Assembly (NCBI RefSeq): GCF_000184705.1
Contig: NC_014831.1
Coordinates: 1-64,000 of the forward strand
Source: Thermaerobacter marianensis DSM 12885
GTDB taxonomy: Bacteria > Bacillota > Sulfobacillia > Thermaerobacterales > Thermaerobacteraceae
Length of the DNA stretch: 64,000 nt
Direction: 5' to 3'
Positions 39,124 through 55,189 of this stretch are shown here, piece by piece. Positions within the stretch are counted from its first letter, which is position 1, and each line of letters begins with the position of its first letter. The position numbers and the translations under genes are program-made. The notes below the pieces were generated by a model. That model did no database searches. It saw nothing but the letters and a program-made list of their open reading frames with translations, and had not been told where the DNA came from.

Positions 39124-42100
39124 GTGGCGCTGAGTGCGGTGCTGGGCGAGGCGCTGGTCCCGATCCGGGCGCAGTTCGACGCGCTGGAGCGGGATCTCAA
39201 GCAAGCTCGCCAGAAGGTCGAGGCCAACCTCGGCAAGGCGATGCGGGACGTCGGCAAGTCCTTACGGTCGACGGGGCAGACCCTCTCTACCTACGTCACC
39301 CTGCCCATCATGGGCGCGGCGGGTGCAGCCGTCAAGCTGGCCGGGGATTTTGAGTACGCGATGAACGTGCTCCAGTCTGTATCCGGCGCGACGAGCACAG
39401 AACTCGCCAAGATGCGCCAGCTTGCGGTGGAGCTTGGGAACGACGTCGCCCTGCCAGGTACCTCGGCCATCGACGCCGCGGAAGCGATGACCGAATTGGT
39501 CAAGGCGGGCCTAAGCGTGGAGCAGACGATGAAGGCGGCCCGGGGCGTGCTCGTCCTGTCGGCGGCTGCGGAGGTATCGAATGCCGAGGCCGCGGAGATT
39601 ACGGCCAACGCGCTCAATGCCTTCCGCCTCAGCGGCGACAAGGCGACCTATGTAGCTGACCTGTTGGCCAACGCGGCCAACGCGGCATCGGGCGAGATCA
39701 TCGACATGGCCTACGGCCTGCGGCAGTCGGCTGCTGTGTCTGCCATGGCCGGTCAGGACATCGCGGATGTCGTGACGGCCCTCTCCTTGATGGCGAACGC
39801 AGGCATCCAGGGAAGCGACGCCGGTACGTCGCTCAAGCAGATGTTCCTGAGCCTGATCAACCCGACAGACAAGGCGAAGAAGCTCATGAAAGAGCTGGGC
39901 ATCGAGCTGTTTACATCGTCCGGGCAGCTGAAGCCGCTCCCGCAGCTCATCGAGGAGTTTCGTGGCGCGCTGAGCAAGCTGACCCCCGCCCAGCGGAACC
40001 AGGCTCTGGCGACCATCTTCGGCAGCGATGCGATCCGCGCGGCCAACATCGTCCTGATGGCGAGCGCCGACGAGTGGAACAACATGCGGGCAGCCGTCAC
40101 CCGGGCTGGTGGGGCACAGGACGTCGCGGCGGCCAAGATGAAGGGCTTTCGGGGGGCACTGGAAGCGTTCAGGAGCACGCTGGAGACCCTTGGGATCACG
40201 CTCGGGGAGAAGATCTTGCCGCACGTCACCGCGTTCCTCCAGACCCTCACGAAGCTCGTCAACTGGTTCGGCGAATTGCCTGGTCCGGTGCAGACGACCA
40301 TCCTGGCTCTGGCAGGGGTGGCCGCCATCGTGGGCCCGCTCCTGGTTGGGTTGGGCGCCGTTGTCAGCGCGATCGGCACGCTGATGACGGTGGGGCCTGC
40401 TGTCGCTGCTGCGCTGGGGTCCGTCGTGACCGTGGCCGGCCCAGTGGTGCTGGCCGTCATGGGCGCAGCAGCGGCCCTATATGTGCTGTTCCGCGCTGGC
40501 AAGGCCGTGTGGCCGAAGCTGGCCGCCGCGGCGAAGAAAGCTGGTCCCGCCATCGCCGGAGCCATGGACCAGGCCAACAAGGCCCTGGGGCGCCTCGGAC
40601 AGGAGTTGCGGTCGATGCTGGGCAGGGCTGTTGATTGGGTCGTGCGGACTGCCGGGCAGATTGGATCCGGCATCGAGCGTGCTGGTCAGGCTGTAGCTGA
40701 TGCTCTTGGCCGCGCAGGGGATGCCGTGACGGCCTTTGTGCGGAGGGGCGTGGCGCAGCTGCAAACCTTCCTGGTGCGCGTTGCGTCGTGGGCTAACGGC
40801 ATCGTAAGCAACGCGACCTCGGCCATGGCAAGGTTTGGGTCTGTGGTCGCCTCCGCAATGAGCCGCGCGTTATCCACGGTGTCTGGATTCGTGTCCTTGG
40901 CAACATCCAGGCTGCAGGCGATCGTCCGCTACGTTGCGTCCTGGGGCTCGTCCATCGCAGCCCGGGCGGCCTCGGCCATGTCCGCTTTTGCTTCGGCCGT
41001 GCGCTCCGGAATCAACCGCGCCGTGTCCTTCTTTGGCGACCTTGGCAACCGTGCCCTGAGTGCGGTTCGCGGTGCGTTGGGACGCATGGTATCTATTGGC
41101 CGCAATCTTGCGGAGGGCCTGTGGAGCGGCATCTCCAAGATGGGCGGCTGGCTGAAGAACAAGATTCTGGGTTGGGCAAAGTCTGTCATCCCGGACCCGC
41201 TGGAGCGGTTCTTCGGCATCCGGTCTCCCAGCCGCCTGATGGCCCGTTACGGCAAGTTCATTGCTCAGGGCCTGGTCAAGGGCCTGACCGGCTCGGCCAG
41301 CGAGATCAAACGAGCCGCTGAGCAGACCGCACGACTGATGCGGGACGCCTTTGGCGGTGCGCGCGAGAAGCGGCTGCTTGCGATGCTCAGTGCCAACACG
41401 GCACGGTTGCAAAAACTGGCGGCCCAGCGTGACGCCATCGCCAAGCAGATCGCCGAAGCGCACAAGATGGCGGCCGACGTGGCCTCCAAGGCGCTGGAGT
41501 ACGCCTCTATCGGCAACCTGAACCTGGGCGTCGAAGGACCGGTCACCGCGAATAGCGTGATCCAGTCGCTGTCCGACCGGCTACGGCAGATGCGTGCCTT
41601 TGCGTCCAACCTTCGCATCCTTGGGGGCATGGGCCTCTCAAAGGACCTGCTGCGCCAGCTCATTGACATGGGCGTGGATCAGGGAGGCGCCTATGCGGCG
41701 GCCCTGGTGGCCGGCGGCAGGAGCGCGGTGGCACAGATCAATAAACTGCAGCGCCAGATCAACGCCGCTGCCCAGGTCCTTGGGCAAGTCGCCGCGGACA
41801 TCATGTATGACGCAGGGATGCTGGCGGCCAAGGGATTCTTGGCTGGGTTGCAGGAGCAGAAGAAGGACATCGAGGCCGCGATGCGGCGCATCGCACAATC
41901 GGTCCAGGCGACGCTGAGGTCCGAACTGCGGATGCGTTCGCCGTCCAGGGTGATGATGGACCTGGGTCGCAACATCGTTCGCGGCCTGGTGGCCGGCATG
42001 GAGCGGCAGGCAGTGCTAGTTGCTGCTGCGGCGAGCTACCTGTCGTCCCAGGCGGCATCGGCTGTTGCGGCCAGCGCCTTGCCACCGGTCTCGGTCGTCC

Positions 42101-42270
42101 ACGCAGACATGCAAGAGGCAGCAATCATGGGGGCCGGGAAGCCTATCACGATCCTGGTCCCTGTGTACCTGAACGGACGACAGATTGCCCGCGCGTCCGC
42201 CACCTACGTGGATGAGGAACTTGCAGCCCGGCAGCGGCGGGTCAGCCGTGCGCGGGGTGAGGTCTACTGA
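39124..42270 (+). CDS. Tail tape measure protein
   Basis: 1048 aa, GTG 39124. The TP901-type core is clear in FEYAMNVLQSVSGATSTELA, ELGNDVALPGTSAIDAAEAM and GSDAGTSLKQMFLSLINPTD. Hydrophobic segments near residues 390-460 and long Ala-rich helices follow, with repeated FGIRSPSRLMARYGKFIAQG and RMRSPSRVMMDLGRNIV-type motifs (two copies, near 700 and 940), a common feature of the C-terminal part. It sets tail length and is ejected during infection. The stop overlaps Dit (ATGA). Confidence 0.96.
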   Translation: MALSAVLGEALVPIRAQFDALERDLKQARQKVEANLGKAMRDVGKSLRSTGQTLSTYVTLPIMGAAGAAVKLAGDFEYAMNVLQSVSGATSTELAKMRQLAVELGNDVALPGTSAIDAAEAMTELVKAGLSVEQTMKAARGVLVLSAAAEVSNAEAAEITANALNAFRLSGDKATYVADLLANAANAASGEIIDMAYGLRQSAAVSAMAGQDIADVVTALSLMANAGIQGSDAGTSLKQMFLSLINPTDKAKKLMKELGIELFTSSGQLKPLPQLIEEFRGALSKLTPAQRNQALATIFGSDAIRAANIVLMASADEWNNMRAAVTRAGGAQDVAAAKMKGFRGALEAFRSTLETLGITLGEKILPHVTAFLQTLTKLVNWFGELPGPVQTTILALAGVAAIVGPLLVGLGAVVSAIGTLMTVGPAVAAALGSVVTVAGPVVLAVMGAAAALYVLFRAGKAVWPKLAAAAKKAGPAIAGAMDQANKALGRLGQELRSMLGRAVDWVVRTAGQIGSGIERAGQAVADALGRAGDAVTAFVRRGVAQLQTFLVRVASWANGIVSNATSAMARFGSVVASAMSRALSTVSGFVSLATSRLQAIVRYVASWGSSIAARAASAMSAFASAVRSGINRAVSFFGDLGNRALSAVRGALGRMVSIGRNLAEGLWSGISKMGGWLKNKILGWAKSVIPDPLERFFGIRSPSRLMARYGKFIAQGLVKGLTGSASEIKRAAEQTARLMRDAFGGAREKRLLAMLSANTARLQKLAAQRDAIAKQIAEAHKMAADVASKALEYASIGNLNLGVEGPVTANSVIQSLSDRLRQMRAFASNLRILGGMGLSKDLLRQLIDMGVDQGGAYAAALVAGGRSAVAQINKLQRQINAAAQVLGQVAADIMYDAGMLAAKGFLAGLQEQKKDIEAAMRRIAQSVQATLRSELRMRSPSRVMMDLGRNIVRGLVAGMERQAVLVAAAASYLSSQAASAVAASALPPVSVVHADMQEAAIMGAGKPITILVPVYLNGRQIARASATYVDEELAARQRRVSRARGEVY

Positions 42271-43706
42271 TGGCATGGGGATTCCGCTACGACGGCATCC
42301 ACAGCGCGAACAAGGGCGTGCATTCCGTCACCGACGTGCGCCGGTCCATCTTGCCGCCGGTCACGGCGCGGACCCTGGACACTCCGGGACGGCCGGGCGT
42401 CTACTACCAGGGGTTCGACTACGGTGCCCGGGAGATCCAGGTGGACATCATCCTTGCCGAGTCCACTCTGGAGAGCCTGCGGTCCAGAGTCCGCAACCTG
42501 GCTGCATGGCTGCGGCCTGACGACACGCCGCGGCCCCTGGTTTTTGACGACGAGCCGGAGCTAACGTGGTATGCCGTCCTGAGCGGCGACACGAACCTCG
42601 AGGAGATCGTGACGGTCGGACGGGGCACGCTAACCTTTCTGTGCCCCGAACCTTACGCCATCGGTCCTGAGCGCGTGTTAACGATTGCGGACGGCGCCAC
42701 AGTGACCGCGCAGGGTACGGCGGACACCTACCCTATCATCCGGGCCACCGTGCAACGGGATATCACGTTCCTGTCCATCGGAACCGTGGACCGCTACGTG
42801 CTACTTGGCACGCCGTCCGAAGTGGAGCAGGCGTCCGTGCCGCCCTACGAGCGCATCATGTCTGACGAGCTGACCACCACCGAGGGCTGGGTGGACGGCC
42901 TGGATGCGGACGGCGGGCTTGTCGCAGGGACGATGACCTCCAACGGCAACGAGTTCGTCGTTGCCGATTACGGCATCGGTTCGGGTTGGCACGGGCCGGC
43001 CCTTCAGAAAGGGCTACCCGAGCTCGTGCAGGACTTCCGCGTGACCATGTGGGTCCAGGCGATCAACGGAAAGGCCGAGGTCGGCCGTGTTGAGGCGTAC
43101 CTGCTGGATCAGACTGGAGCGATCATCGGCAAGATCGGGCTGGCCGACAAGTATGCTGGCCGCGACGAGATGTGGGGCATTGCACGGGCCGGGAACCTCG
43201 CCAACGGCACGTACATCATCAACGAGTACGGCGACCGGCGAGGCGTCTGGAACGACTTCTACGGCGTCCTGCGGATCGGACGTGTGGGCAACACGTGGGA
43301 GGCCTACATCGCCAAGTACGACCCGGTGAAGCGGGTGTACCACACCAGGCGGTTACGGCGCTGGACTGACACGAAGGGCAGGTGGACGGCGCCCCTAGCG
43401 CGGGTGCAGCTGCACGCGGGCGCCTATGGCGAGAACCCGCCCATGAGCGTCCGCATCCTGTCCGTGACTGTGGAGCGGGTCAACAAGCTGCAGCTCTCCG
43501 ATGTCCCCATCATCGCAGGTCCGGGAGATGAAATCGAGATCGACTGCGAACGGTTCGCCGTGCGGCTGAACGGCGAGCACGCGCTGGAGCTGCTGGACCC
43601 GTCCAGCCAGTTTTTCGTCCTCCGACCGGGTGAGCCGGTTACATTCGACGTATCGCCACCCGGCGCGGCGACCGTCGAGCTCCGCTACCGGGAGCGGTGG
43701 TTGTGA
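42270..43706 (+). CDS. Distal tail protein (Dit)
   Basis: 478 aa. The N-terminal part (WGFRYDGIHSANKGVHSVTD, VYYQGFDYGAREIQVDIILA) is the Dit belt domain that forms the hexameric hub at the tail tip. It is longer than a minimal Dit (about 250 aa); the middle (about 190-390) is an inserted beta-sandwich-like region (FRVTMWVQAINGKAEVGRVE) similar to carrier or carbohydrate-binding insertions in evolved Dits. The gene follows the tape measure and precedes Tal. Confidence 0.85.
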   Translation: MAWGFRYDGIHSANKGVHSVTDVRRSILPPVTARTLDTPGRPGVYYQGFDYGAREIQVDIILAESTLESLRSRVRNLAAWLRPDDTPRPLVFDDEPELTWYAVLSGDTNLEEIVTVGRGTLTFLCPEPYAIGPERVLTIADGATVTAQGTADTYPIIRATVQRDITFLSIGTVDRYVLLGTPSEVEQASVPPYERIMSDELTTTEGWVDGLDADGGLVAGTMTSNGNEFVVADYGIGSGWHGPALQKGLPELVQDFRVTMWVQAINGKAEVGRVEAYLLDQTGAIIGKIGLADKYAGRDEMWGIARAGNLANGTYIINEYGDRRGVWNDFYGVLRIGRVGNTWEAYIAKYDPVKRVYHTRRLRRWTDTKGRWTAPLARVQLHAGAYGENPPMSVRILSVTVERVNKLQLSDVPIIAGPGDEIEIDCERFAVRLNGEHALELLDPSSQFFVLRPGEPVTFDVSPPGAATVELRYRERWL

Positions 43707-45125
43707 ATGTTGCAGGTCATGGTGCTGGACCGCAACGAGGTGGTCCGGGCCGTGCTGGGCGACGCGCCCGGGGCGTGCCCGGTGCTGGAGGACCTCCACA
43801 CGGAGGACCTGGAGAACGCCGACATCACTTACGAGTTCGCGGTGCCTGCCGACCACCCGGACGCCTGGAAGATCGAGAACGGCGGGTACATCATCATCCG
43901 GGACCTGGACGGCCTGCTGCAGCTGCTCCGCGTCGTGCGGGTGGAGCAGACGAACGACCAGGACGGCAAGCAGCTGCGGCAGGTGCTGGCCGAAAACGCG
44001 GCCCTGGAGCTCAACGGCACTATCGTGCCGCCCCAAACCCTGCGGGGCGTGTCGGCCGAGCAGGCCATGGCAGCCGTCCTTTCCGCGACCCGGTGGCAGC
44101 CCGGCATCGTCGAGTGGGCCGGCATCCAGGACCTCGTGATCGACCAGCACACGACGGCCCTCGCGTTGGTCCACCAGATCCGCCAGAAGTACGGGGGCGA
44201 GATCCGGTGGCGGGTGGAGTGGGACCGCGGGCGAGCCACGGGCCGCTACGTGGACCTGCTCCGTCAGCGCGGGCGCCGTACCGGGAAGCGGGTGGAGTAT
44301 CGCAAGGACATCGACGAGATGCGCGTCATCGAGGACACCAGCGAGCTGGTCACGGCGATGATCGGATTGGGGCGGTCGGATGATTCCGGCCGCCGCCTCA
44401 CTTTTGTGGGGGTGGAGTGGAGCACGGCGAAGGGCGACCCGGTGGACAAGCCGCTGGGGCAGGAGTGGGTGGGTGACCCGGAGGCCTTGCAGCGGTGGGG
44501 CCTCCCCGGCGGCCGTCACCTGATGGGTGTCTACGAGGACTCCGAGGAAACCGACCCGGCCCGCCTGCTCCAGAAAACGTGGGACGCCCTGCAGGAGCGC
44601 ATCAAGAGCCGGTACACCTACGAGATCACGGCGGTGGCCCTGGAGCGCATCGCCGGCCTGGAACACGAGGCGGTGCGCCTGGGCGATACCGTGACGGTCC
44701 ACAACTTCGACGTGGACCCGCCGCTGGTCCTGGAGGCCCGTGTGGTCAAGCTGGAGCGGTCCTACACCGACCCCACGCGGGACCGGGTGTACCTGGGCTA
44801 TTACGAGCCCTCCAAGCTCGGCCGGGCGGTGCTGGACAGCGCCGAAAGACAGGTCCGGCGCCTGAGGACCGTCGTCCAAACCATCCAGGCCCGGGACGAA
44901 CCGGCGCTGGTGGACATCACCTACGGACCGGACGGGCGGTTCCAGAAGGCGGTCTCGGGCGGCTGGTGGTGGGAGGCGGAATACACCACCGGGCCGACGG
45001 GTCAGGTGGTGGCCTCCAAGATCACGGAGCGCCGGCCGGACGGGACAACGGTGGCCTGGACACTCGAGTATGACGCCTCCGGACGGCTGATCCGGGCCAC
45101 GCCGGCCGTCACGGCGGCATCGTGA
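43707..45125 (+). CDS. Tail-associated hub protein (Tal/gp27-like)
   Basis: 472 aa from ATG 43707. The first 370 residues follow the gp27-like fold of phage tail hub/endopeptidase-tail proteins: VLEDLHTEDLENADITYEFA, VRRTGKRVEYRKDIDEMRV-type core and YTYEITAVALERIAGLEHE, then VRLGDTVTVHNFDVDPPLVL. No recognisable lysin domain follows, only a short C-terminal beta segment. It closes the tail tube below Dit. Confidence 0.85.
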   Translation: MLQVMVLDRNEVVRAVLGDAPGACPVLEDLHTEDLENADITYEFAVPADHPDAWKIENGGYIIIRDLDGLLQLLRVVRVEQTNDQDGKQLRQVLAENAALELNGTIVPPQTLRGVSAEQAMAAVLSATRWQPGIVEWAGIQDLVIDQHTTALALVHQIRQKYGGEIRWRVEWDRGRATGRYVDLLRQRGRRTGKRVEYRKDIDEMRVIEDTSELVTAMIGLGRSDDSGRRLTFVGVEWSTAKGDPVDKPLGQEWVGDPEALQRWGLPGGRHLMGVYEDSEETDPARLLQKTWDALQERIKSRYTYEITAVALERIAGLEHEAVRLGDTVTVHNFDVDPPLVLEARVVKLERSYTDPTRDRVYLGYYEPSKLGRAVLDSAERQVRRLRTVVQTIQARDEPALVDITYGPDGRFQKAVSGGWWWEAEYTTGPTGQVVASKITERRPDGTTVAWTLEYDASGRLIRATPAVTAAS

Positions 45126-45564: not shown

Positions 45565-46818
45565 ATGGCGTGGATCCAGGGCTACGCGACGCCCGCCACG
45601 ATCACGAGGGTGTTGCGCGACGCCATGGTGGCCGCGGGCTGGACTGAGGTGGCCAACCCGGCTGCGGAGGAATACATCCTCCAGACGACGACGGACCCAG
45701 AGGGCGCGATCCGGGCACCGAAGGCCGTCAAGGCGGCGCTGACCGGAGCCGCCGCGTCCGGGACCGGGTTTACGGGCGGTGCGACATACGACTACGTGGT
45801 GACCGCCGAGGGCCCGAAGGGCGAGTCGGTGGCGTCGGCCACGGCCTCGGTGACCCAGCCAACGACGCCTGAGCGGGTCAAGTTGTCCTGGCGGCTGCTG
45901 GATGGCGCCTTGCGGTATCACATCTACCGCAAGACCGGGACCGGCGGCTTTGAGCGCGTCGGCTCCACGGAGGGCCAATGCACCACGTGGATCGACGACG
46001 GTGCGACGCCGCAGGCGGGTGTGACGCCGCCGGCAGGCCAGAGCCTGACCATTCTCGCGCGTATTCGGCGCCCGAGCGCGTCCAAGTTTGCCATCGAGGT
46101 GTCGATGCTTGAGGCTTACGACACGGTGGCTGCCACGGCGACCAATGAGTCTCCCAAGGTTCCGCTCTATTTCTGGTACGGTGGCGCCACGACGCCGAGC
46201 TGGGGCGACAATAGCCAGCTCCTTTACTGGGGCAATGTGAGCAAGAATCGGGTGGCGGTTGTAATCTACGGCGACCCGACGATTGATTTCTCGAACTACA
46301 GAGTCGGATTCCTTTACCTCGGTCGTTTGACACCGTTTCCTGAGGCCGGTCAGGATGTGGCCGGTAACTTTGCCCTGTGCGGGAATTTTGCTGGTTCCGG
46401 CACGCTCAGCGTACCGACCACCTATGGCCCTTACACGGGTAGTGGCGTGCTCGACGTGATGGTCTATAAGACAAAGTCCGGTGTCCTGTATCAAAGGCAT
46501 GAGCTGGCCTTCGTGACCCAGAGATCCGGTATGACGCTCGAAGACAAGGGCTTCAACCCGAGCCAGTGGACGCAAAAGTACCACTTGTCCCCGGCCTACG
46601 TCGTACACGGCTATGACGGCTATCGTGGCTGGCTAGAGGACGTGCTGGTGGTGCAGGACCACAACCTTGTGCACCTAGATGAGTTCATCGTCAGCTATCC
46701 TGACGGCGGGACGGAGCGGTACAAGTATTTCCGCGTCGACCCGGCCGGCAACTGGCCAATTGGCAACGCATCGCCGAACTCGAAATATTCCGTGGCCATC
46801 CTCAAGGAAGCGGCGTAA
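45565..46818 (+). CDS. Tail/baseplate protein with Fn3-like domain
   Basis: 417 aa from ATG 45565. Residues about 50-150 look like a fibronectin-III-type module (TYDYVVTAEGPKGESVASAT, SWRLLDGALRYHIYRKTGTG). The C-terminal 250 residues are rich in Tyr, Gly and aromatic strands (YFWYGGATTPSWGDNSQLLY) without a recognised family; probably a virion surface protein. Similar large beta proteins follow in the same operon. Confidence 0.7.
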   Translation: MAWIQGYATPATITRVLRDAMVAAGWTEVANPAAEEYILQTTTDPEGAIRAPKAVKAALTGAAASGTGFTGGATYDYVVTAEGPKGESVASATASVTQPTTPERVKLSWRLLDGALRYHIYRKTGTGGFERVGSTEGQCTTWIDDGATPQAGVTPPAGQSLTILARIRRPSASKFAIEVSMLEAYDTVAATATNESPKVPLYFWYGGATTPSWGDNSQLLYWGNVSKNRVAVVIYGDPTIDFSNYRVGFLYLGRLTPFPEAGQDVAGNFALCGNFAGSGTLSVPTTYGPYTGSGVLDVMVYKTKSGVLYQRHELAFVTQRSGMTLEDKGFNPSQWTQKYHLSPAYVVHGYDGYRGWLEDVLVVQDHNLVHLDEFIVSYPDGGTERYKYFRVDPAGNWPIGNASPNSKYSVAILKEAA

Positions 46819-46833
46819 TGGGGGTGACGGGCC

Positions 46834-49800
46834 GTGCCGGTGGCCGAGCTACTGGCGTCCTATCAACCGGCGCGGAACAGCGTCACCCTTGCGGCGGGCT
46901 ACCGGGTGGACCGGCTGGGATCGCAGGAGGACCTGCTGCGGGCCGGCTACCTGCCTTATGCCATCCTGCCCGGCCGGCAGGAGGCGGTACCCCGTCCGGT
47001 CGCCCTTGCCATCGAGCGGCCGGCGGCCGTCGCGGAATGCTGTCCGGCGGACCGGGTAGACGGGCGCGGGGCGCGGATCGACGTTGGGATGTCGGCCGCC
47101 CGTCTGCCGGACCGCCAGGCCGTCGCGGTACGCAGGCCGATGGCCGGGGAACGCCCGTTGGAGCGCCAGGCCGTGCCACCGGCTGGCACGATCCTTGTAG
47201 CCCGGCGCCCCATCGAGCGCGGCGGGTCTGCACGGTGGGCGCCCACGCCAGAAGGCCAGCGGATCATCGAGCGGGCAGGGATTCCGCGGTCGGGCCTGTC
47301 GGCTGGCGTCCGGCTGATCGACCGGCCCGGGATCGCGCATCCGGTCACCCGCGAGGCCATGCGGCCCGTCGGCCGCGATGTTACCCTGGTCGTCGCCGGG
47401 GCGGCGGCCGGGAGGTCGATCGAGCGACTGGGCGCGACGCGGCCGGTCCTCGTCCTACCCGACCGCGACGCCGAACGGACGGCCCTGCTCATCGCCGGAT
47501 ACTTGCCGGTGGCCCGTGACCCGTCGCACGAGGCTCTGGTGGTGGCCGGCCGATGGGCCGACCGGGACGCCAGCAAGTCCGCGGTGGTCATGCCGGCGCC
47601 ATGGCGGGCCGTCCACGACGGCGACCGCACGGCCCTGGTGGTGTGGGGCAGCCGGCCCATCGAGTACCTGGGCGGCAACACGATCATCATGCGCCCGCAC
47701 ATCATGGGCGCCCTGAATAACCTGCGGGTGGTGGAGGTCCTGCCCCACCGGCCGCCGGCGGCCCGAGTAGACGAGCACGGGGCAGCCGTGGGCCATGGTC
47801 TGGCCGGCGCCCGGCCCGTGGAGCATGGCGCCGACATCGTGTGGCTGGTGGCTGGCGAGAGGCCGTCCGAACTTGGGGCGGCCATGATCCGTCTAGGACT
47901 GGCCGGAGAGCGGCCAACGAGCCTGGGCGGCGTCATGGTCCGGCTGGCCGCGGCCGGCGAACGGCCCACCGTCCACGGCGCCGTCGTCGGTGGGTTCGCG
48001 GCGGCGGGATCGCGGCCTGCCGAACATGGATCCACGGTCTGGCACCGGCCTCTGCCCGGCGGCACCGAAGCCCGGGCCGCAGCGATGCTGTGGGCGCCCA
48101 TGGCAGTCCGCGAGACCGTGGAGCCTGGGCTGGTCCTGGCGCGTCTACCGCTGCTGGTGCCTGTGCCGAAGCAAGCCCTGGTCGTGGCGCCTCAGCCGAT
48201 GGCCGACAAGGCGCCGAAGGACGGCCGCCTGGTTCTGCCTCGGTGGTGGGCAGAGACAGCCCCCAAGGAGGCCCGGTCCGGTGTCGGCCTGTGGGTGGAG
48301 CGCGACCAGGGGCGGACGACGATCGTCGTGCCGGGCCGCCCTACGGGTGGCGAGCTCCCGGACGCCATCGGGGCGGCCCCTTACATGCCGCGGCCCAAGG
48401 ACAACGAGCGGCCCTACGACTCGCCGCAGGAGCCTTGGCCGGACACGGAGCCGATCACCGGCCCGTACAACCCGCCGCCGCCACCGAGTACGGACCCTGA
48501 GACTGGGGCGCCAGTCAACCCGCCGCCGCAGAACCACGTGGAGCCGCCGCCCAATTCGGTGGCGGACCCGGTAACGGGCGAGCCGCGCCACCCGACCGGC
48601 GGTACCGACCCGGTAACCGGGGACCCGGAGATCCTGCCGCCCCGGGACCCGGCGCATGTTCCCGGCGACATGTGCGGCGCAGTGGACGAGGCGGACGTGC
48701 CGGAAGGCGTCCTACTGGAGTTCATTGCCAGGTTCTGGGACGTGTGGAAGACATTCGAGGTCTACTACGGCCACGTCACGGCCGATGAGGCCGTCCGTCA
48801 CCTGCTCAGCGAGCTGGTCCGGTGGCTGGGCGACAACCCGTACGATCCGCGATACTGGGTGCTCTACTGCGATTTGCGCGACTGCGCAAGGTCTGCGGTC
48901 ATGCGGTACTGCCGCACGTACCTGCGCAAGCAGTGGGGGCAGGAGAGGGCCTCGGCGCTAGACTACGGCACCGATGCCTTCAACACTGGCAACTTCATGG
49001 ACCCGAGCCGGTGGACGGTCAGCGGGTGGTCGTTCCGCTACCACCTGAACCCTACCGACATTGCCCTGGCCCCGGACGGGGATGGGGCGACGGTCACGCT
49101 GTCCTGCAATCTGCCGGACGGGGGTTGGGTCGACTTCGAGTACCTGATCGCGACGGGCAACGCAATGAGGCTGATCGCCCTGCCGTCGGGCACGGTCCTC
49201 TGGTCCGCCGAGGGCACGGTGGACGACCCCTACGGCGTGGCCGGCCCGCACGCTTCGGTGGAGGTTCCGCCGGGCACGACGGGATTGCAGTGGGTTTTCG
49301 AGTGGAAAGCCACGACGCGACAGGAGTCCATCGACTACGGCACCGACGATTACAACGCTGCCGCCTTTTTGGACGCGACTCGGTGGACGGTGACCGGATG
49401 GAGCTTTAAGAACCAGTCTGCCACCGACATCGCGCTGGCCCCCGACGCCGATGGGGCGACGGCGGAGCTGTCCTGCAACCTGCCCGACGGCGGGCGGGTG
49501 GAGTTTGAGGTGGCGGTCACCAACGGCAACCAGCTCCAGCTCGTCGCGCTGCCGTCCGGGACGGTGGTCTGGTCCAGCGCCGGCACGACGGACGAGCCCT
49601 ACGGGACCGCGTGGCCCAAGGTTGCCGTGGAACTGCCGGCGGGCACGACGGCCATCCGGTGGCAGTTCGCCGGGACGGCTGTAGCGCCGAGTGGCCTCCG
49701 GGCCCTCATCGACGTGGTGACGGTCTACCGCTATGCCTACACCCTGGCCGCCCCGCCGAGCGGGCTGGCCGGCATCCTCGATGTCGTGACGCTCTGGCGG

Positions 49801-49959
49801 TACGACTACCGCCAGGTCCTCATCGGCGCCTGGCCGGAGACGGTCTGCGAGCCCAACCGGGGCAACGACGCCGTGCGGGACGCCTGGGAGTGCTGGCGCC
49901 GAAAGTGGGAGGAGCGGCACAAGGACAAGACCCTGCGCCGGCGGTGGCTCGTGACCTGA
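46834..49959 (+). CDS. Large repetitive baseplate/fibre protein
   Basis: 1041 aa, GTG 46834. Residues about 1-515 are made of degenerate 16-17-residue repeats of the form AGxRPxExGAxxVxLxxA, clearest around 325-400 (AGERPSELGAAMIRLGL, AGERPTSLGGVMVRLAA, AGERPTVHGAVVGGFAA). A Pro-rich linker (about 525-605) and a conserved cysteine-containing helical segment (VLYCDLRDCARSAVMRYCRT) follow. Then come two tandem ~120-residue beta domains beginning DYGTDAFNTGNFMDPSRWTV and DYGTDDYNAAAFLDATRWTV. No known family identified; a virion fibre or scaffold is inferred from position. Confidence 0.6.
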   Translation: MPVAELLASYQPARNSVTLAAGYRVDRLGSQEDLLRAGYLPYAILPGRQEAVPRPVALAIERPAAVAECCPADRVDGRGARIDVGMSAARLPDRQAVAVRRPMAGERPLERQAVPPAGTILVARRPIERGGSARWAPTPEGQRIIERAGIPRSGLSAGVRLIDRPGIAHPVTREAMRPVGRDVTLVVAGAAAGRSIERLGATRPVLVLPDRDAERTALLIAGYLPVARDPSHEALVVAGRWADRDASKSAVVMPAPWRAVHDGDRTALVVWGSRPIEYLGGNTIIMRPHIMGALNNLRVVEVLPHRPPAARVDEHGAAVGHGLAGARPVEHGADIVWLVAGERPSELGAAMIRLGLAGERPTSLGGVMVRLAAAGERPTVHGAVVGGFAAAGSRPAEHGSTVWHRPLPGGTEARAAAMLWAPMAVRETVEPGLVLARLPLLVPVPKQALVVAPQPMADKAPKDGRLVLPRWWAETAPKEARSGVGLWVERDQGRTTIVVPGRPTGGELPDAIGAAPYMPRPKDNERPYDSPQEPWPDTEPITGPYNPPPPPSTDPETGAPVNPPPQNHVEPPPNSVADPVTGEPRHPTGGTDPVTGDPEILPPRDPAHVPGDMCGAVDEADVPEGVLLEFIARFWDVWKTFEVYYGHVTADEAVRHLLSELVRWLGDNPYDPRYWVLYCDLRDCARSAVMRYCRTYLRKQWGQERASALDYGTDAFNTGNFMDPSRWTVSGWSFRYHLNPTDIALAPDGDGATVTLSCNLPDGGWVDFEYLIATGNAMRLIALPSGTVLWSAEGTVDDPYGVAGPHASVEVPPGTTGLQWVFEWKATTRQESIDYGTDDYNAAAFLDATRWTVTGWSFKNQSATDIALAPDADGATAELSCNLPDGGRVEFEVAVTNGNQLQLVALPSGTVVWSSAGTTDEPYGTAWPKVAVELPAGTTAIRWQFAGTAVAPSGLRALIDVVTVYRYAYTLAAPPSGLAGILDVVTLWRYDYRQVLIGAWPETVCEPNRGNDAVRDAWECWRRKWEERHKDKTLRRRWLVT

Positions 49960-49974
49960 GGGGAGGGGACGAGG

Positions 49975-51081
49975 GTGCCAACGATCTACCGCACTCGATC
50001 CGGCCTGCTGTTCTACGACGACTTTTCGGCCGTTCCCCTCGGCCCCTCCTGGCGGGTCGAGCCGGAGAGCGAGGCGGCCCGGGTCAGCTTGTCGGCCCGC
50101 CCTGGGTGGCTCCAGCTCTCGCATGGCTCTGTGCGCCTCTTTGCCCTGGCGCCCATCCCCGACGGAGACCTGGTAATCGAAGCGGAGGTGGACTACGACC
50201 CCACCGACCCCGCGGAGATGGGCGGTCTGGTGCTGTTCGCGGCCGCCCCAGACGAGTGGGCCGGCATCGTGGAGCGGATGGACGGTTCGACCACCGTCAC
50301 CGGCTGGTCGCACCTGCGCCTTGTGCGGACAGGGGACCGCTGGGACGCCTACGCCAGCCACGACCGGGTGACCTGGGATTGGCTCGGCGCCCAGCGGTTC
50401 CGCGAGGTCACGGAGTTCGGCCTGGTCCTCGACGGCGCCGCCGGCGACACCCTGGACGTGGACGTGGTGCGGGTCTACCGCTCCACCCGCATCCGCGTCG
50501 AGGCCGTGCCTGCGGGCTCCACAGTGCGGCTGGTGGCAGAGGACGGCACAACGGTTCTCAAGGAGGCTGTGGTGCCCACCGGCGCGACGGCGGTGGAGCT
50601 CGACGTGGGCGACCTGCGTTGTCCCATCGCCGGCTCCATCCGGGTCTACGACGGCGCTGGCACCATGGTCCGGGACACCGGCCTGCTCAATGACATCTGG
50701 GGCGGCGACGTATACCGCGCCGAGATCATGGTGGCGGTCTACGACGACGCCGCCAAGCCGGTGCCGTTGGATCGAGAGTGGGACTTCGGCCCGGTGCAAG
50801 GGACCGATCACGCACGCCGTCTGGAGCTCCGCAATGACACCGGCCTGGATCTGGCCGATGTGACCGTGGCGGTGATCCCGCACCCGGACGGAACCTGGGG
50901 CGATGCCTGGGTGGACGTGGCGCCTGATGCCGGCGGCGTGCCGGGGACCTACGGCGACATCGCCACCATCGCTTCGATCCCGGCTGGCACCAGCGGCTAC
51001 GTCTGGGTCCGGGTGACGCGGGGTCTGGACGGTCCGCCGCAGGACCGCTACAAGTTCGGCTTGCGCATCACCATCCCGTAA
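49975..51081 (+). CDS. Tail protein with concanavalin-like domain
   Basis: 368 aa, GTG 49975 after GGGAGGGGAC. The first 180 residues have the LamG/DUF1349-type pattern (FYDDFSAVPLGPSWRVEPES, GGLVLFAAAPDEWAGIVERM, LRLVRTGDRWDAYASHDRVT), a fold often used to bind sugars. The C-terminal half is a series of beta-sandwich segments (VRLVAEDGTTVLKEAVVPTG, TSGYVWVRVTRGLDGPPQDR). Probably displayed on the tail and involved in host-surface contact. Confidence 0.7.
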   Translation: MPTIYRTRSGLLFYDDFSAVPLGPSWRVEPESEAARVSLSARPGWLQLSHGSVRLFALAPIPDGDLVIEAEVDYDPTDPAEMGGLVLFAAAPDEWAGIVERMDGSTTVTGWSHLRLVRTGDRWDAYASHDRVTWDWLGAQRFREVTEFGLVLDGAAGDTLDVDVVRVYRSTRIRVEAVPAGSTVRLVAEDGTTVLKEAVVPTGATAVELDVGDLRCPIAGSIRVYDGAGTMVRDTGLLNDIWGGDVYRAEIMVAVYDDAAKPVPLDREWDFGPVQGTDHARRLELRNDTGLDLADVTVAVIPHPDGTWGDAWVDVAPDAGGVPGTYGDIATIASIPAGTSGYVWVRVTRGLDGPPQDRYKFGLRITIP

Positions 51082-52470: not shown

Positions 52471-53862
52471 ATGGCGACCTACTACGTAGCGCCCTACGGC
52501 AACGACACCAACGCGGGCACGTCTCCGAGTGCGCCTTTCGCCACGATCAATAAAGCGGCGCAGGTTATGGTCGATGGAGACGTGTGCTACGTGGCGCCTG
52601 GAGTTTACCGTGAAGCGGTGTCTGTTCCCGCACAGGCCAGCGGCACGAAGCTCGTATCGTTCATTGGCGACACTGAAGCGCGTAATTTCCCCGGCGTGCA
52701 GCCCGGCGAGGTGCGGCTAGACGGATCCGACGACGACGTGAATCCGGTACGCACTACAGGAGTTAGCATTGGAAGTGGCGCTCTTGTGAGGTGGCGCAGA
52801 ATCAATGTTGTCCGATTCTCGAGCTACGGCTTCACCATTGGAAGCGCAAACCTTAACATTGCAAACATTGTTGAAGAATGCATTGTTAATTCAAGGGATG
52901 TAGCTTTTTACATTACCAATGCGGCGTTTTTTACCATCAGAAAAGTAAATGTCGAAAACTGTGCTCGTGCGCTGCAGGTACCTGGTGGCAATAATTTTGT
53001 TTTGACCGCTGAGGATATGCTTCTTGAATCGGTCGACGTTGGTTTTGATCTATCAACGCATTCTTGGAGTCGAGTTGTTTTGCGCCGGATTTACCACCGC
53101 GCTGCAGGTTCCACTCGGCTCTTAGTTTTCATGCAAGCTGGCGAGCTATACGCCGAGGATGTGGTTGTGGTCAACGGAGCACTCCTTAGCACGGCTGTTG
53201 CAGGTTCGGGCAACTTTAGACACGTAACTATTGTCAGAGCAACTGCGGTCAAACCAGGAGGCACAAACTGTTTGTACTTTAGTCAGTTCAATAATTACGA
53301 TGGTTCAGATAGCCTAAATGTCTACGATTCGTTATTCGCGGAATCACAATATGGTGTTTATGTAACAAGTGGCTATCCTCGAGTTCTTCTACACAGCTGT
53401 GCTTTCCCAGATGTGACTACGGCTGCATTGAACGCAGACATAATCACTGGTGTAAAGAATACAACAACCGATTCTCAGGCTAATGTCATACTGCCCGACT
53501 TCACGCCGGTAGGTGCACAGATCCTGCGTGCCGAGGAACAGAACCCCATCGAGGGCCTGCGCTCAGCGCGGATCGACGTGCCTCGGGTGGCCTATTACAA
53601 GTTCCAGGTGGCTGTTAGTGGCCCGAACACGATCACCTTGAAGGCGAAGAAGTCCCACGCCACCGGCACCACGGTGAAGTTCCGCGTGGACGAAGACCCC
53701 AACAAGGTGGTCACGCTGGCCGACACCGATCAGGTGCAGACGGTCCAACTCGGGCCTGTGGAAGACCGTGGGCCACGGTTCGTGCCGCTGGAGGTTTGGG
53801 CGCAGCAGGTGGACTACATCGACGGCCACTACCTGCTCATCGACAGCATCCAGGTGATCTGA
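52471..53862 (+). CDS. Tailspike with right-handed beta-helix
   Basis: 463 aa from ATG 52471. The start MATYYVAPYGNDTNAGTSPS with PFATINKAAQVMVDGDVCYV is the standard N-terminus of pectate-lyase-like beta-helix spikes. Strand-turn repeats run to about residue 340, then a small C-terminal beta domain (VAVSGPNTITLKAKKSHATG). Such spikes bind or cut surface polysaccharide. DNA for the central helix (about 52740-53500) is much poorer in GC and has AT-ending codons, whereas both ends match the rest of the phage: a domain swap. Confidence 0.85.
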   Translation: MATYYVAPYGNDTNAGTSPSAPFATINKAAQVMVDGDVCYVAPGVYREAVSVPAQASGTKLVSFIGDTEARNFPGVQPGEVRLDGSDDDVNPVRTTGVSIGSGALVRWRRINVVRFSSYGFTIGSANLNIANIVEECIVNSRDVAFYITNAAFFTIRKVNVENCARALQVPGGNNFVLTAEDMLLESVDVGFDLSTHSWSRVVLRRIYHRAAGSTRLLVFMQAGELYAEDVVVVNGALLSTAVAGSGNFRHVTIVRATAVKPGGTNCLYFSQFNNYDGSDSLNVYDSLFAESQYGVYVTSGYPRVLLHSCAFPDVTTAALNADIITGVKNTTTDSQANVILPDFTPVGAQILRAEEQNPIEGLRSARIDVPRVAYYKFQVAVSGPNTITLKAKKSHATGTTVKFRVDEDPNKVVTLADTDQVQTVQLGPVEDRGPRFVPLEVWAQQVDYIDGHYLLIDSIQVI

Positions 53863-53920: not shown

Positions 53921-53934
53921 GGGAGGTGTCTTGT

Positions 53935-54390
53935 GTGCGGGAGGATACCATCTGGACGGGCGCGGTGGCGCTTGCCGGCACGGTGGCGACGGCCGTGTTC
54001 GGCGCGTGGGACCGGCCCCTGCAGCTCTTGCTCGTCGCAATGGCCCTTGACTACGTGACGGGGGTTGTGGCGGCTGCCGTGACGGGGCGTTTATCCAGCG
54101 AGGTCGGCTTGCGGGGGGTTGCACGTAAACTGGCCCTGCTGGGCCTCGTGGCCGTGGCCAACCTGATCGACCAGATGCTGGCCGCTGGTGCGGCCCAAGC
54201 GCTCGACCTGGCGCTGCCGGAGGGCACGTCCGCTATCCGGACGGCCGTCTGCTTTGCCCTGGGCGTCTCGGAGGTGGTCTCGATCATCGAGAACCTGGGC
54301 GAGGCCGGGGCGCCGATCCCGGAGCCCTTGCGGCGGATGGTGGCGGCGCTGAAGCGGGCGGAGGGGGGCGCCGAAGATGGCCGTGCGTAA
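53935..54390 (+). CDS. Phage holin (holin 4 / TcdE-like family)
   Basis: 151 aa from GTG 53935, nine bases after GGGAGG; an upstream GTG at 53926 is too close. Three hydrophobic segments (TIWTGAVALAGTVATAVFGA, QLLLVAMALDYVTGVVAAAV, and a third near residue 95) with a conserved LDYVTGVVAA motif match holins of the toxin-secretion/lysis family. It permeabilises the membrane so that the adjacent amidase reaches peptidoglycan. It overlaps the amidase gene by 14 bp. Confidence 0.88.
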   Translation: MREDTIWTGAVALAGTVATAVFGAWDRPLQLLLVAMALDYVTGVVAAAVTGRLSSEVGLRGVARKLALLGLVAVANLIDQMLAAGAAQALDLALPEGTSAIRTAVCFALGVSEVVSIIENLGEAGAPIPEPLRRMVAALKRAEGGAEDGRA

Positions 54391-55189
54391 GGTATACGTG
54401 GACCCCGGACATGGTGGCTCTGACCCCGGGGCCGTCGGCAATGGGGTCCGCGAGGCCGACGTGGCGCTGGCGGTGGCCGTCAAGGTGGCCGACCACCTGC
54501 GCCGCCACGGCCTGGAGGTGCGGCTGTCTCGCACCGTGGACACCGCCAAGAGCCTCCAGGCCCGCACCGACGAGGCCAACGCCTGGGGCGCCGACGCCTA
54601 TGTATCCATCCATTGCAACGCCGCGGGCACGCCGGAGGCCAGCGGGTGGGAGGTCTGGCACACGATCCACGAGGAGCGGTCCATGGGCGACGAGCTAGCG
54701 GAGGCGATCGCGGACCAGCTCAAGCGCCTGCCGATGGTGGCCCGGGGCACGAAGTCGAAGCCCAGCACGTCGAACCCGCAGACGGACTACTACCACGTGA
54801 TCCGGGAGACGCGCATGCCCGCCGTCATCGTGGAGTGCGGGTTCGTGACGAGCCCGAAGGACGCCGGGTACCTGAAGTCCGCAGAGGGCCAGGCGGCAAT
54901 CGCCGAGGCCATTGCCCGGGGCGTCATCGCGTGGGCGGGGCTTGCGTGGCGGCCGGCCGAACAGCCGAAGTCGGCTCCCGTCCCGTCCCCCGCGCCGAAG
55001 GCCCCGGTGAAGCCCGGCCCGTTCCGCGACGTGCCCGGCGACCATTGGGCGGCGGTGTCCATCGAGCGGCTGAAAAGGGCGGGCATCATCGAGGGGTTTG
55101 CGGACGGCACGTTCCGCCCCGACGAGCCTGTCACACGGGCGCAGCTTGCCGCTATTCTAGATCGCCTGCAAAGCGCGCTGAGAAAATGA
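54377..55189 (+). CDS. N-acetylmuramoyl-L-alanine amidase with SLH domain (endolysin)
   Basis: 270 aa. Residues about 4-185 form an Amidase_3 zinc enzyme: VYVDPGHGGSDPGAVGNG (zinc His), READVALAVAVKVADHLRRH (zinc Glu), SIHCNAAG (zinc His) and MPAVIVECGFVTSPKDAGYL with the catalytic Glu. A Pro/Lys linker leads to a single SLH motif (FRDVPGDHWAAVSIERLKRA, IIEGFADGTFRPDEPVTRAQ). SLH modules bind secondary cell-wall polymers in S-layer-bearing Firmicutes, so this endolysin is tailored to such an envelope. No signal peptide, as expected with a holin. Confidence 0.95.
   Translation: MAVRKVYVDPGHGGSDPGAVGNGVREADVALAVAVKVADHLRRHGLEVRLSRTVDTAKSLQARTDEANAWGADAYVSIHCNAAGTPEASGWEVWHTIHEERSMGDELAEAIADQLKRLPMVARGTKSKPSTSNPQTDYYHVIRETRMPAVIVECGFVTSPKDAGYLKSAEGQAAIAEAIARGVIAWAGLAWRPAEQPKSAPVPSPAPKAPVKPGPFRDVPGDHWAAVSIERLKRAGIIEGFADGTFRPDEPVTRAQLAAILDRLQSALRK

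Follow-up and report, generated by a model that had tools for sequence, protein, structure and literature searches.

A degenerate 16- to 17-residue repeat in a giant prophage tail protein of Thermaerobacter marianensis recurs at one gene position in phages of the Bacillales

The window analyzed here is the 64,000-nt stretch at positions 1 to 64,000 of contig NC_014831.1 from Thermaerobacter marianensis DSM 12885. The 1041-aa protein studied here is encoded in a prophage tail region of this strain, where it is flanked by two genes that we refer to as the upstream and downstream module genes. The features of the locus are as follows.

39124-42270: tape-measure gene, ahead of the 1041-aa ORF in the tail region
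42270-43706: Dit gene, between the tape-measure gene and the endopeptidase-type tail gene
43707-45125: prophage endopeptidase-type tail gene, ahead of the module genes
45565-46818, plus strand: upstream module gene, phrog_9485/phrog_11431 type (PHROG E=1.9e-21 and 4.7e-25)
46834-49959, plus strand: giant repeat protein ORF, GTG start, 1041 aa
46834-48393, plus strand: repeat region, residues 1-520, about 30 degenerate 16- to 17-residue units, pattern roughly AGxRPxExGAxxVxL
47803-48054, plus strand: most regular block, residues 324-407, five near-regular 17-residue copies (Viterbi parse; sliding-window z=9.6 at residues 321-440)
48394-48678, plus strand: Pro-rich linker, residues 521-615, with two DPVTG motifs
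48703-48984, plus strand: helical domain, residues 624-717, helices in the AlphaFold2 (AF2) model with pLDDT of about 60-70 over most of it
48961-49317, plus strand: beta-rich domain copy 1, residues 710-828, strands in the AF2 model
49333-49683, plus strand: beta-rich domain copy 2, residues 834-950, strands in the AF2 model
49921-49956, plus strand: C-terminal basic/Trp tail, KDKTLRRRWLVT, compared by eye
49975-51081, plus strand: downstream module gene, phrog_7317 type, with a GH43_C2-like domain (PHROG E=2.9e-27)

Residues 531 to 615 of the linker are 41% Pro+Gly and plot as disordered in the charge-hydropathy analysis. The helical domain that follows is weakly common to L009, a locus of 218,948 bp (BLASTP E=0.001 over 61 aa), and aligned by hhalign with the relatives from phages AR9 and BpSp at E=0.0004, yet with a probability of only 35%. 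The two beta-rich copies are 60% identical to each other over 113 aa, and Foldseek matched these domains of the low-confidence AF2 model to Xyn30D and CBM6/CBM35-type modules, the only part of the protein for which that search was informative, and weakly so. Compared by eye, the C-terminal ends among relatives read RRVWNVQT or ...RIWLI..K..SW..WNWKKTR, and the RRRWLVT end of the 1041-aa protein resembles those of L009 and L044, not the Bacillales form RIWLIxGKxxSWxxWNWKKTR. The upstream module gene is a relative of Gp133 of phage BpSp and is 45% identical over 130 aa to a gene of L009 (E=9e-34), and the downstream module gene scores exactly at the Pfam cut-off for GH43_C2. Elsewhere in the window, the C-terminus of the endopeptidase-type tail protein shows a weak, below-cut-off match (E=0.002) to an RHS repeat. 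Positions 52471-53862, 3' of the module, encode a pectate-lyase-like right-handed beta-helix protein (PF22842, E=2.2e-8) that is possibly of tailspike type. A small holin-like ORF at 53926 precedes ORF 54377-55189, which we take, by eye from its motifs, to be amidase-like with a C-terminal SLH-like segment.

The original prediction for this locus was that about 500 residues of a giant tail-region protein consist of a 16- to 17-residue repeat, and autocorrelation, a cyclic HMM, and sliding windows agree that they do. BLOSUM autocorrelation over residues 1 to 520, compared with 300 shuffles, gave z=7.3 at lag 17, 5.8 at lag 16, 4.4 at lag 33, and 2.8 at lag 34. The period was also present in sub-blocks taken alone (lag 17 with z=4.4 for residues 1-320 and z=9.3 for 321-410; lag 16 with z=5.0 for 411-520). 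The cyclic profile HMM found 17 to be the best of periods 12 to 20 and scored 337 bits, compared to 187 to 201 bits for six identically trained shuffles. In sliding 120-aa windows the signal was strong at about residues 81 to 480, peaked at residues 321 to 440, and was absent past about residue 520, where the Pro-rich linker starts. The repeat in residues 1 to 520 is thus confirmed. A Viterbi parse divided residues 1 to 530 into 33 rows including the ends, which corresponds to about 30 units, and the at least five nearly regular copies expected at residues 325 to 400 appeared as five copies at 324 to 407. Eroded copies had been expected before this regular block and were found there; they also follow it, so their restriction to the preceding part did not hold. 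No 48- to 51-bp tandem array was found by TRF in the repeat-encoding DNA, indicating that the repeat exists at the protein level only. The original prediction recognized no named repeat family for it, and this also stood, given that the 1041-aa protein had nothing above cut-off in Pfam or NCBIfam and no PHROG match, that solved structures in the PDB offered no credible match to it, and that we found no description of this 16- to 17-residue repeat in the literature searched.

Direct similarity searches with the 1041-aa protein recovered this prophage only from viral contigs and phage collections, and none of 60 related genomes besides its own gave a match. The C-terminal part, used as the query against bacterial genome contigs, likewise returned this prophage only, and a relative from locus L031 had no match among plasmids. 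We therefore describe the family through its neighbors, for which phage records did give matches: 5 for the downstream gene and 12 for the upstream gene. Between or beside these neighbors, Brevibacillus phage Jenst, Bacillus phage EZ-2018a (whose locus spans the ends of its record and is contiguous in the copy L011), and Parageobacillus phage JGon-2020a each encode a giant protein, of 696 to 1243 aa, with a top autocorrelation lag of 17 in Jenst and EZ-2018a and of 48/49 in JGon-2020a. A profile of the downstream gene drew more loci from viral and bacterial contigs (given here as L-numbers), mostly from Paenibacillus, Brevibacillus, and Bacillus where the organism was named. The same profile gave 4 short partial matches among 150 related genomes besides its own, and the small loci around them had no clear 16/17 period. 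A search for the repeat elsewhere, proposed with the original prediction, thus succeeded by gene position, where giants unrelated by BLAST have the same period.

Of 36 loci examined, 33 had a candidate ORF, and L040, L042, and L043 had no family ORF. In the set of 23 non-redundant members, from which near-duplicates were omitted, lag 16 or 17 ranked first of 68 in 17 members and in the top 3 in 21; those lacking a clear 16/17 peak were JGon-2020a, where the better of the two lags ranked 9th, and L044, where it ranked 20th and the top lag was 19. A z of at least 2.5 together with a rank of 2 or better was reached by 18/23 members, compared to 3/69 of the control ORFs, which were the remaining reading frames of 400 aa or more at these loci. 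One of these three is a missed member at 1734-5477 of L010, where the automatic pick was wrong and the true member was counted among the controls. L018 joined the set after its period was seen, and its WNWKKTR end provides independent support.

We trained a cyclic model on nine Bacillales members, leaving out the 1041-aa protein, and it scored residues 1 to 520 of that protein at 13 bits, compared to a maximum of -6 in 60 shuffles. The corresponding z was 9.5 at period 16 and 7.1 at period 17, and the C-terminal part of the 1041-aa protein and six neighbor proteins, used as controls, did not exceed 2.7. At period 16 the model recognized L035 (z=24.9), L039 (10.3), L049 (8.9), and L050 (5.5), was marginal for JGon-2020a (2.9) and EZ-2018a (2.2), and did not clearly recognize AR9 or L009 (1.9 each) or L046 (-0.3). 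In the reverse direction, a model trained on the 1041-aa protein recognized no other member (z at most 2.1). All nine training members also belong to the 23-member period set, and the two tests are therefore not independent. At the sequence level, homology of the 1041-aa protein to its AR9 and L009 relatives is weak. In the nine-member consensus, one position is mostly Ala or Gly (about 77-78%), and a weaker small-residue position lies eight residues away from it. Indels of more than a few residues between close relatives are mostly whole repeats (65, 130, 32, 16, 18, 54, and 35/36 aa), with a few odd lengths in the closer pairs (e.g., 6, 8, 9, and 15 aa) and many in pairs of about 40% identity; the whole-repeat indels weigh only weakly, given that simple DNA slippage could also yield them.

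The 1041-aa protein shares the characters of this Jenst-type family: it lies between phrog_9485/11431- and phrog_7317-type genes, carries a 16- to 17-residue period over hundreds of residues, and is recognized by a profile trained without it, although the reverse recognition fails. The repeat recurs at one gene position in many phages, with common neighbors, and marks out a gene family that is spread across phages and goes with a particular gene module, a point that the original prediction did not contain. The best-supported account is that these tail proteins, built from repeats, make up an unrecognized family that is part of a fiber module; the most specific hypothesis is that the fibers are corkscrews.

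Several members carry arrays that are young. The 2320-aa member of Bacillus sp. FJAT-27264 (L035:1023-7982) has tens of near-identical 32-aa units, each composed of a pair of 16-mers, and an autocorrelation z of 55.6 at lag 32. A Brevibacillus member (L017:3727-7983) has about 17 near-identical 16-aa copies, and the L039 member also has 16-aa copies. A near relative of the L017 member, also from Brevibacillus (L038:3757-7983), carries a deletion relative to it of roughly a single repeat (15 aa), suggesting a recent change in copy number. The upstream module gene, single in this prophage, has two tandem relatives in JGon-2020a (L006:8541-11655) and three in EZ-2018a (L007:1-5601, first ORF judged by eye). 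A 1037-aa ORF at L024:5546-8656 has a 14-residue period (z=17.7) and apparently lies outside the Jenst-type family.

The domain encoded by the upstream gene (phrog_9485/11431) is rare, occurring in 12 of 50,697 phage records, on which two different queries agree. Its carriers are the jumbo Bacillus phages AR9, PBS1, Goe21, and BpSp together with Jenst, SecTim467, EZ-2018a, and JGon-2020a, some of them in several records, and in 12/12 records a repeat protein adjoins it or lies within about one gene. The AR9 protein, gp058 (859 aa), is annotated as a virion structural protein, and its two highest-ranking lags are 17 and 34; in BpSp, the module's upstream gene encodes Gp133, and the repeat protein is Gp134. 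Flagella are the attachment site of PBS1 and AR9. The T. marianensis genome has two flagellin loci, which permit flagellar binding and do not show it.

BpSp carries curly tail fibers, for which Gp133 and Gp25 were named as candidates (Yuan and Gao 2016, PMC4870245). In the portion of that paper available to us, Gp133 is described as similar to ORF129 of phage 0305phi8-36, whose ORF119, ORF129, and ORF131 were proposed for its curly fibers, and AR9 and PBS1 are listed among phages with helical fibers (PMC4870245). According to the same portion, the proteins of curly fibers are not known outside 0305phi8-36, and its candidates for BpSp itself are genes other than the repeat gene, one being the repeat gene's neighbor (PMC4870245). 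Virion mass spectrometry as reported there detected 23 BpSp proteins, Gp133 among them and Gp134 not (PMC4870245), and the absence of Gp134 from this list speaks against a high copy number and weighs against a place for the repeat protein in the fiber. The upstream neighbor of the 1041-aa protein, being related to Gp133, is hence also related to ORF129. For 0305phi8-36 (218 kb), the sections consulted place the curly-fiber candidates within orfs 119-121 and 126-134 (Hardies et al., PMC2147016) and give the corkscrew fibers as 187 x 10 nm (PMC1817643), and the fibers of PBS1 are described, in the excerpt at hand, as about 125 nm long and wrapping flagella (PMC9266447).

In L009, one strong Gp133-like gene is followed directly by the repeat protein and then by a phrog_7317 gene. 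We infer that L009 is 0305phi8-36, given its length of 218,948 bp versus 218 kb, the Gp133-like gene, and a weak VWA match. The pair of upstream gene and repeat protein is thus present in AR9, PBS1, BpSp, and presumably 0305phi8-36, all phages with corkscrew fibers, and genes of the module are related to published curly-fiber candidates, with the link of L009 to 0305phi8-36 a presumed one. In the literature text available to us, no corkscrew fiber is reported for Jenst, and to our knowledge none is known on particles of this prophage. Fiber length set against protein size (125 nm and 859 aa; 187 nm and 1072 aa) gives ratios of 1.50 and 1.25, a comparison of two points only that proves nothing.

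We consider the evidence evenly balanced on whether the 1041-aa protein is a structural component of a long tail fiber with the repeats as its backbone; that this prophage makes a corkscrew fiber is less likely than that. In such a fiber, the approximately 30 units of residues 1 to 520 would form an elongated backbone, from which the Pro-rich linker would lead to the helical domain, the two carbohydrate-binding-like beta domains, and the short basic/Trp tail. The protein would be made together with its neighbors at 45565-46818 and 49975-51081 as one module. Jenst-like siphophages and prophages of Paenibacillus have this module as well. In the jumbo phages, where the upstream gene is found together with the repeat protein, it would be the most likely origin of the corkscrew (curly) tail fibers. 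The repeat protein may itself lie in the fiber with its repeats as the backbone, and the same may be true of this prophage.

AF2 modeling of the 1041-aa protein, which had practically no alignment to draw on in the repeats, returned a pLDDT of about 25-40 over most of them, and an L052-led alignment of 13 relatives gave about 25. Structure prediction of residues 1 to 520, also proposed with the original prediction, thus produced a few hairpins and no confident fold. Low confidence in both of these proteins is what would be expected of a disordered, length-variable tether that spaces the C-terminal binding domains from the tail tip, with the period a trace of old tandem duplication and not of a fold. 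In the charge-hydropathy plot, 8/15 relatives have repeat regions that lie on the side of disorder, and the large copy-number changes in L035, L017, and L039 would also suit such a tether. However, the repeats of the 1041-aa protein itself fall on the folded side (0.494 versus a boundary of 0.424), and the 16- to 17-residue spacing and the Ala/Gly position outlast sequence identity; we regard the tether as rather unlikely.

A trimeric shaft of known kind, either a triple beta-spiral or a phi29-like helix-turn-helix supercoil, is a distinctly doubtful alternative. Trimers are common among virus fiber shafts, and each of the two folds has precedent, according to the part of the source consulted (PMC7565637), but the phi29 gp8.5 stem, the one such shaft that we compared, has a period of 26/13 rather than 17 and scores z=-0.6 with the family model. 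On these figures phi29 gp8.5 was rejected as a structural relative.

The original prediction favored a beta-solenoid or beta-prism-like rod, based on the period and on alternating hydrophobic residues. Short hydrophobic runs (LVV) bordered by Pro/Gly-rich turns, and the few hairpins in the AF2 model, are in keeping with a self-standing rod of this kind. However, lag-2 hydrophobicity was negative in 20/20 repeat regions (z=-3.5 for the 1041-aa protein), so that the alternation expected of a simple beta-strand repeat is absent, and AF2 returned no confident solenoid. A beta-solenoid rises about 0.48 nm per coil, and thirty coils would reach only about 15 nm, far below the 125- to 187-nm fibers of the jumbo relatives. 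A self-standing rod is therefore quite improbable; the proposal is left unsupported and not strictly refuted, given that the AF2 and lag-2 results leave room for beta structure that depends on partners or on a deeper alignment. Averaging the repeat columns gave a secondary structure that was ambiguous between alpha and beta, and the Pro/Gly content of the 1041-aa protein (21%) speaks against long helices. A spurious ORF or mere chance composition, which high GC and long overlapping ORFs on the other strand might suggest, is a negligible prospect and already refuted, given the coding-like GC by codon position of residues 1 to 550 (0.80/0.58/0.85), the failure of autocorrelation and HMM shuffles to reproduce the signal, the cross-recognition by the family model, and the relatives at the same gene position of other phages.

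Returning to the fiber backbone, we considered a more specific form of it, which we rate as unlikely: the repeat protein could be both the backbone and the length ruler of corkscrew fibers, a low-copy, largely extended chain in which each unit docks one abundant Gp133/ORF129-type subunit. Repeat number would then set fiber length, and repeat spacing would set the corkscrew. Thirty 17-residue units could extend up to about 180 nm, and the known fibers measure 125 and 187 nm; a low copy number would also explain why Gp134 of BpSp was missed by mass spectrometry. If a ruler of this kind exists, the siphophages and this prophage would carry unrecognized corkscrew fibers.

Our findings describe a repeat family that is invisible to ordinary sequence search and whose module is common to corkscrew-fiber phages and many Bacillota prophages. 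The family supplies a concrete knockout target in laboratory B. subtilis phages, where the ruler idea is testable, and its module is detectable in genomes through periodicity instead of similarity.

Among named systems, the phi29 head fiber gp8.5 is likewise a repeat-built phage fiber, and differs in the period and model score given above. Jenst gp147 (phrog_28065, unknown function) lies between the same two neighbors and has a 17-residue period, but it is acidic (pI 4.5) and a model trained on it alone misses the 1041-aa protein (z -0.3 to 0.8). AR9 gp058 and PBS1 248 (phrog_22568, virion structural protein) follow a phrog_9485 gene and share period 17 and a C-terminal helical domain; in contrast to the protein described here, they have no detectable phrog_7317 neighbor and no CBM-like copies were seen in them, they belong to jumbo myophages, and their homology to the 1041-aa protein is weak. 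The ORF119/ORF129/ORF131 candidates of 0305phi8-36 and the Gp133/Gp25 candidates of BpSp meet our module at its upstream gene, which is related to Gp133 and thereby to ORF129, although in the portions of the literature available to us the named candidates are neighbors of the repeat protein and not identifiably the repeat protein itself. L009, presumably 0305phi8-36, differs in that its repeat signal is more local (residues ~361-520), but its module is complete, with the three genes in unchanged order, and it has the helical domain and an RRxWxV-type end like that of the T. marianensis protein.
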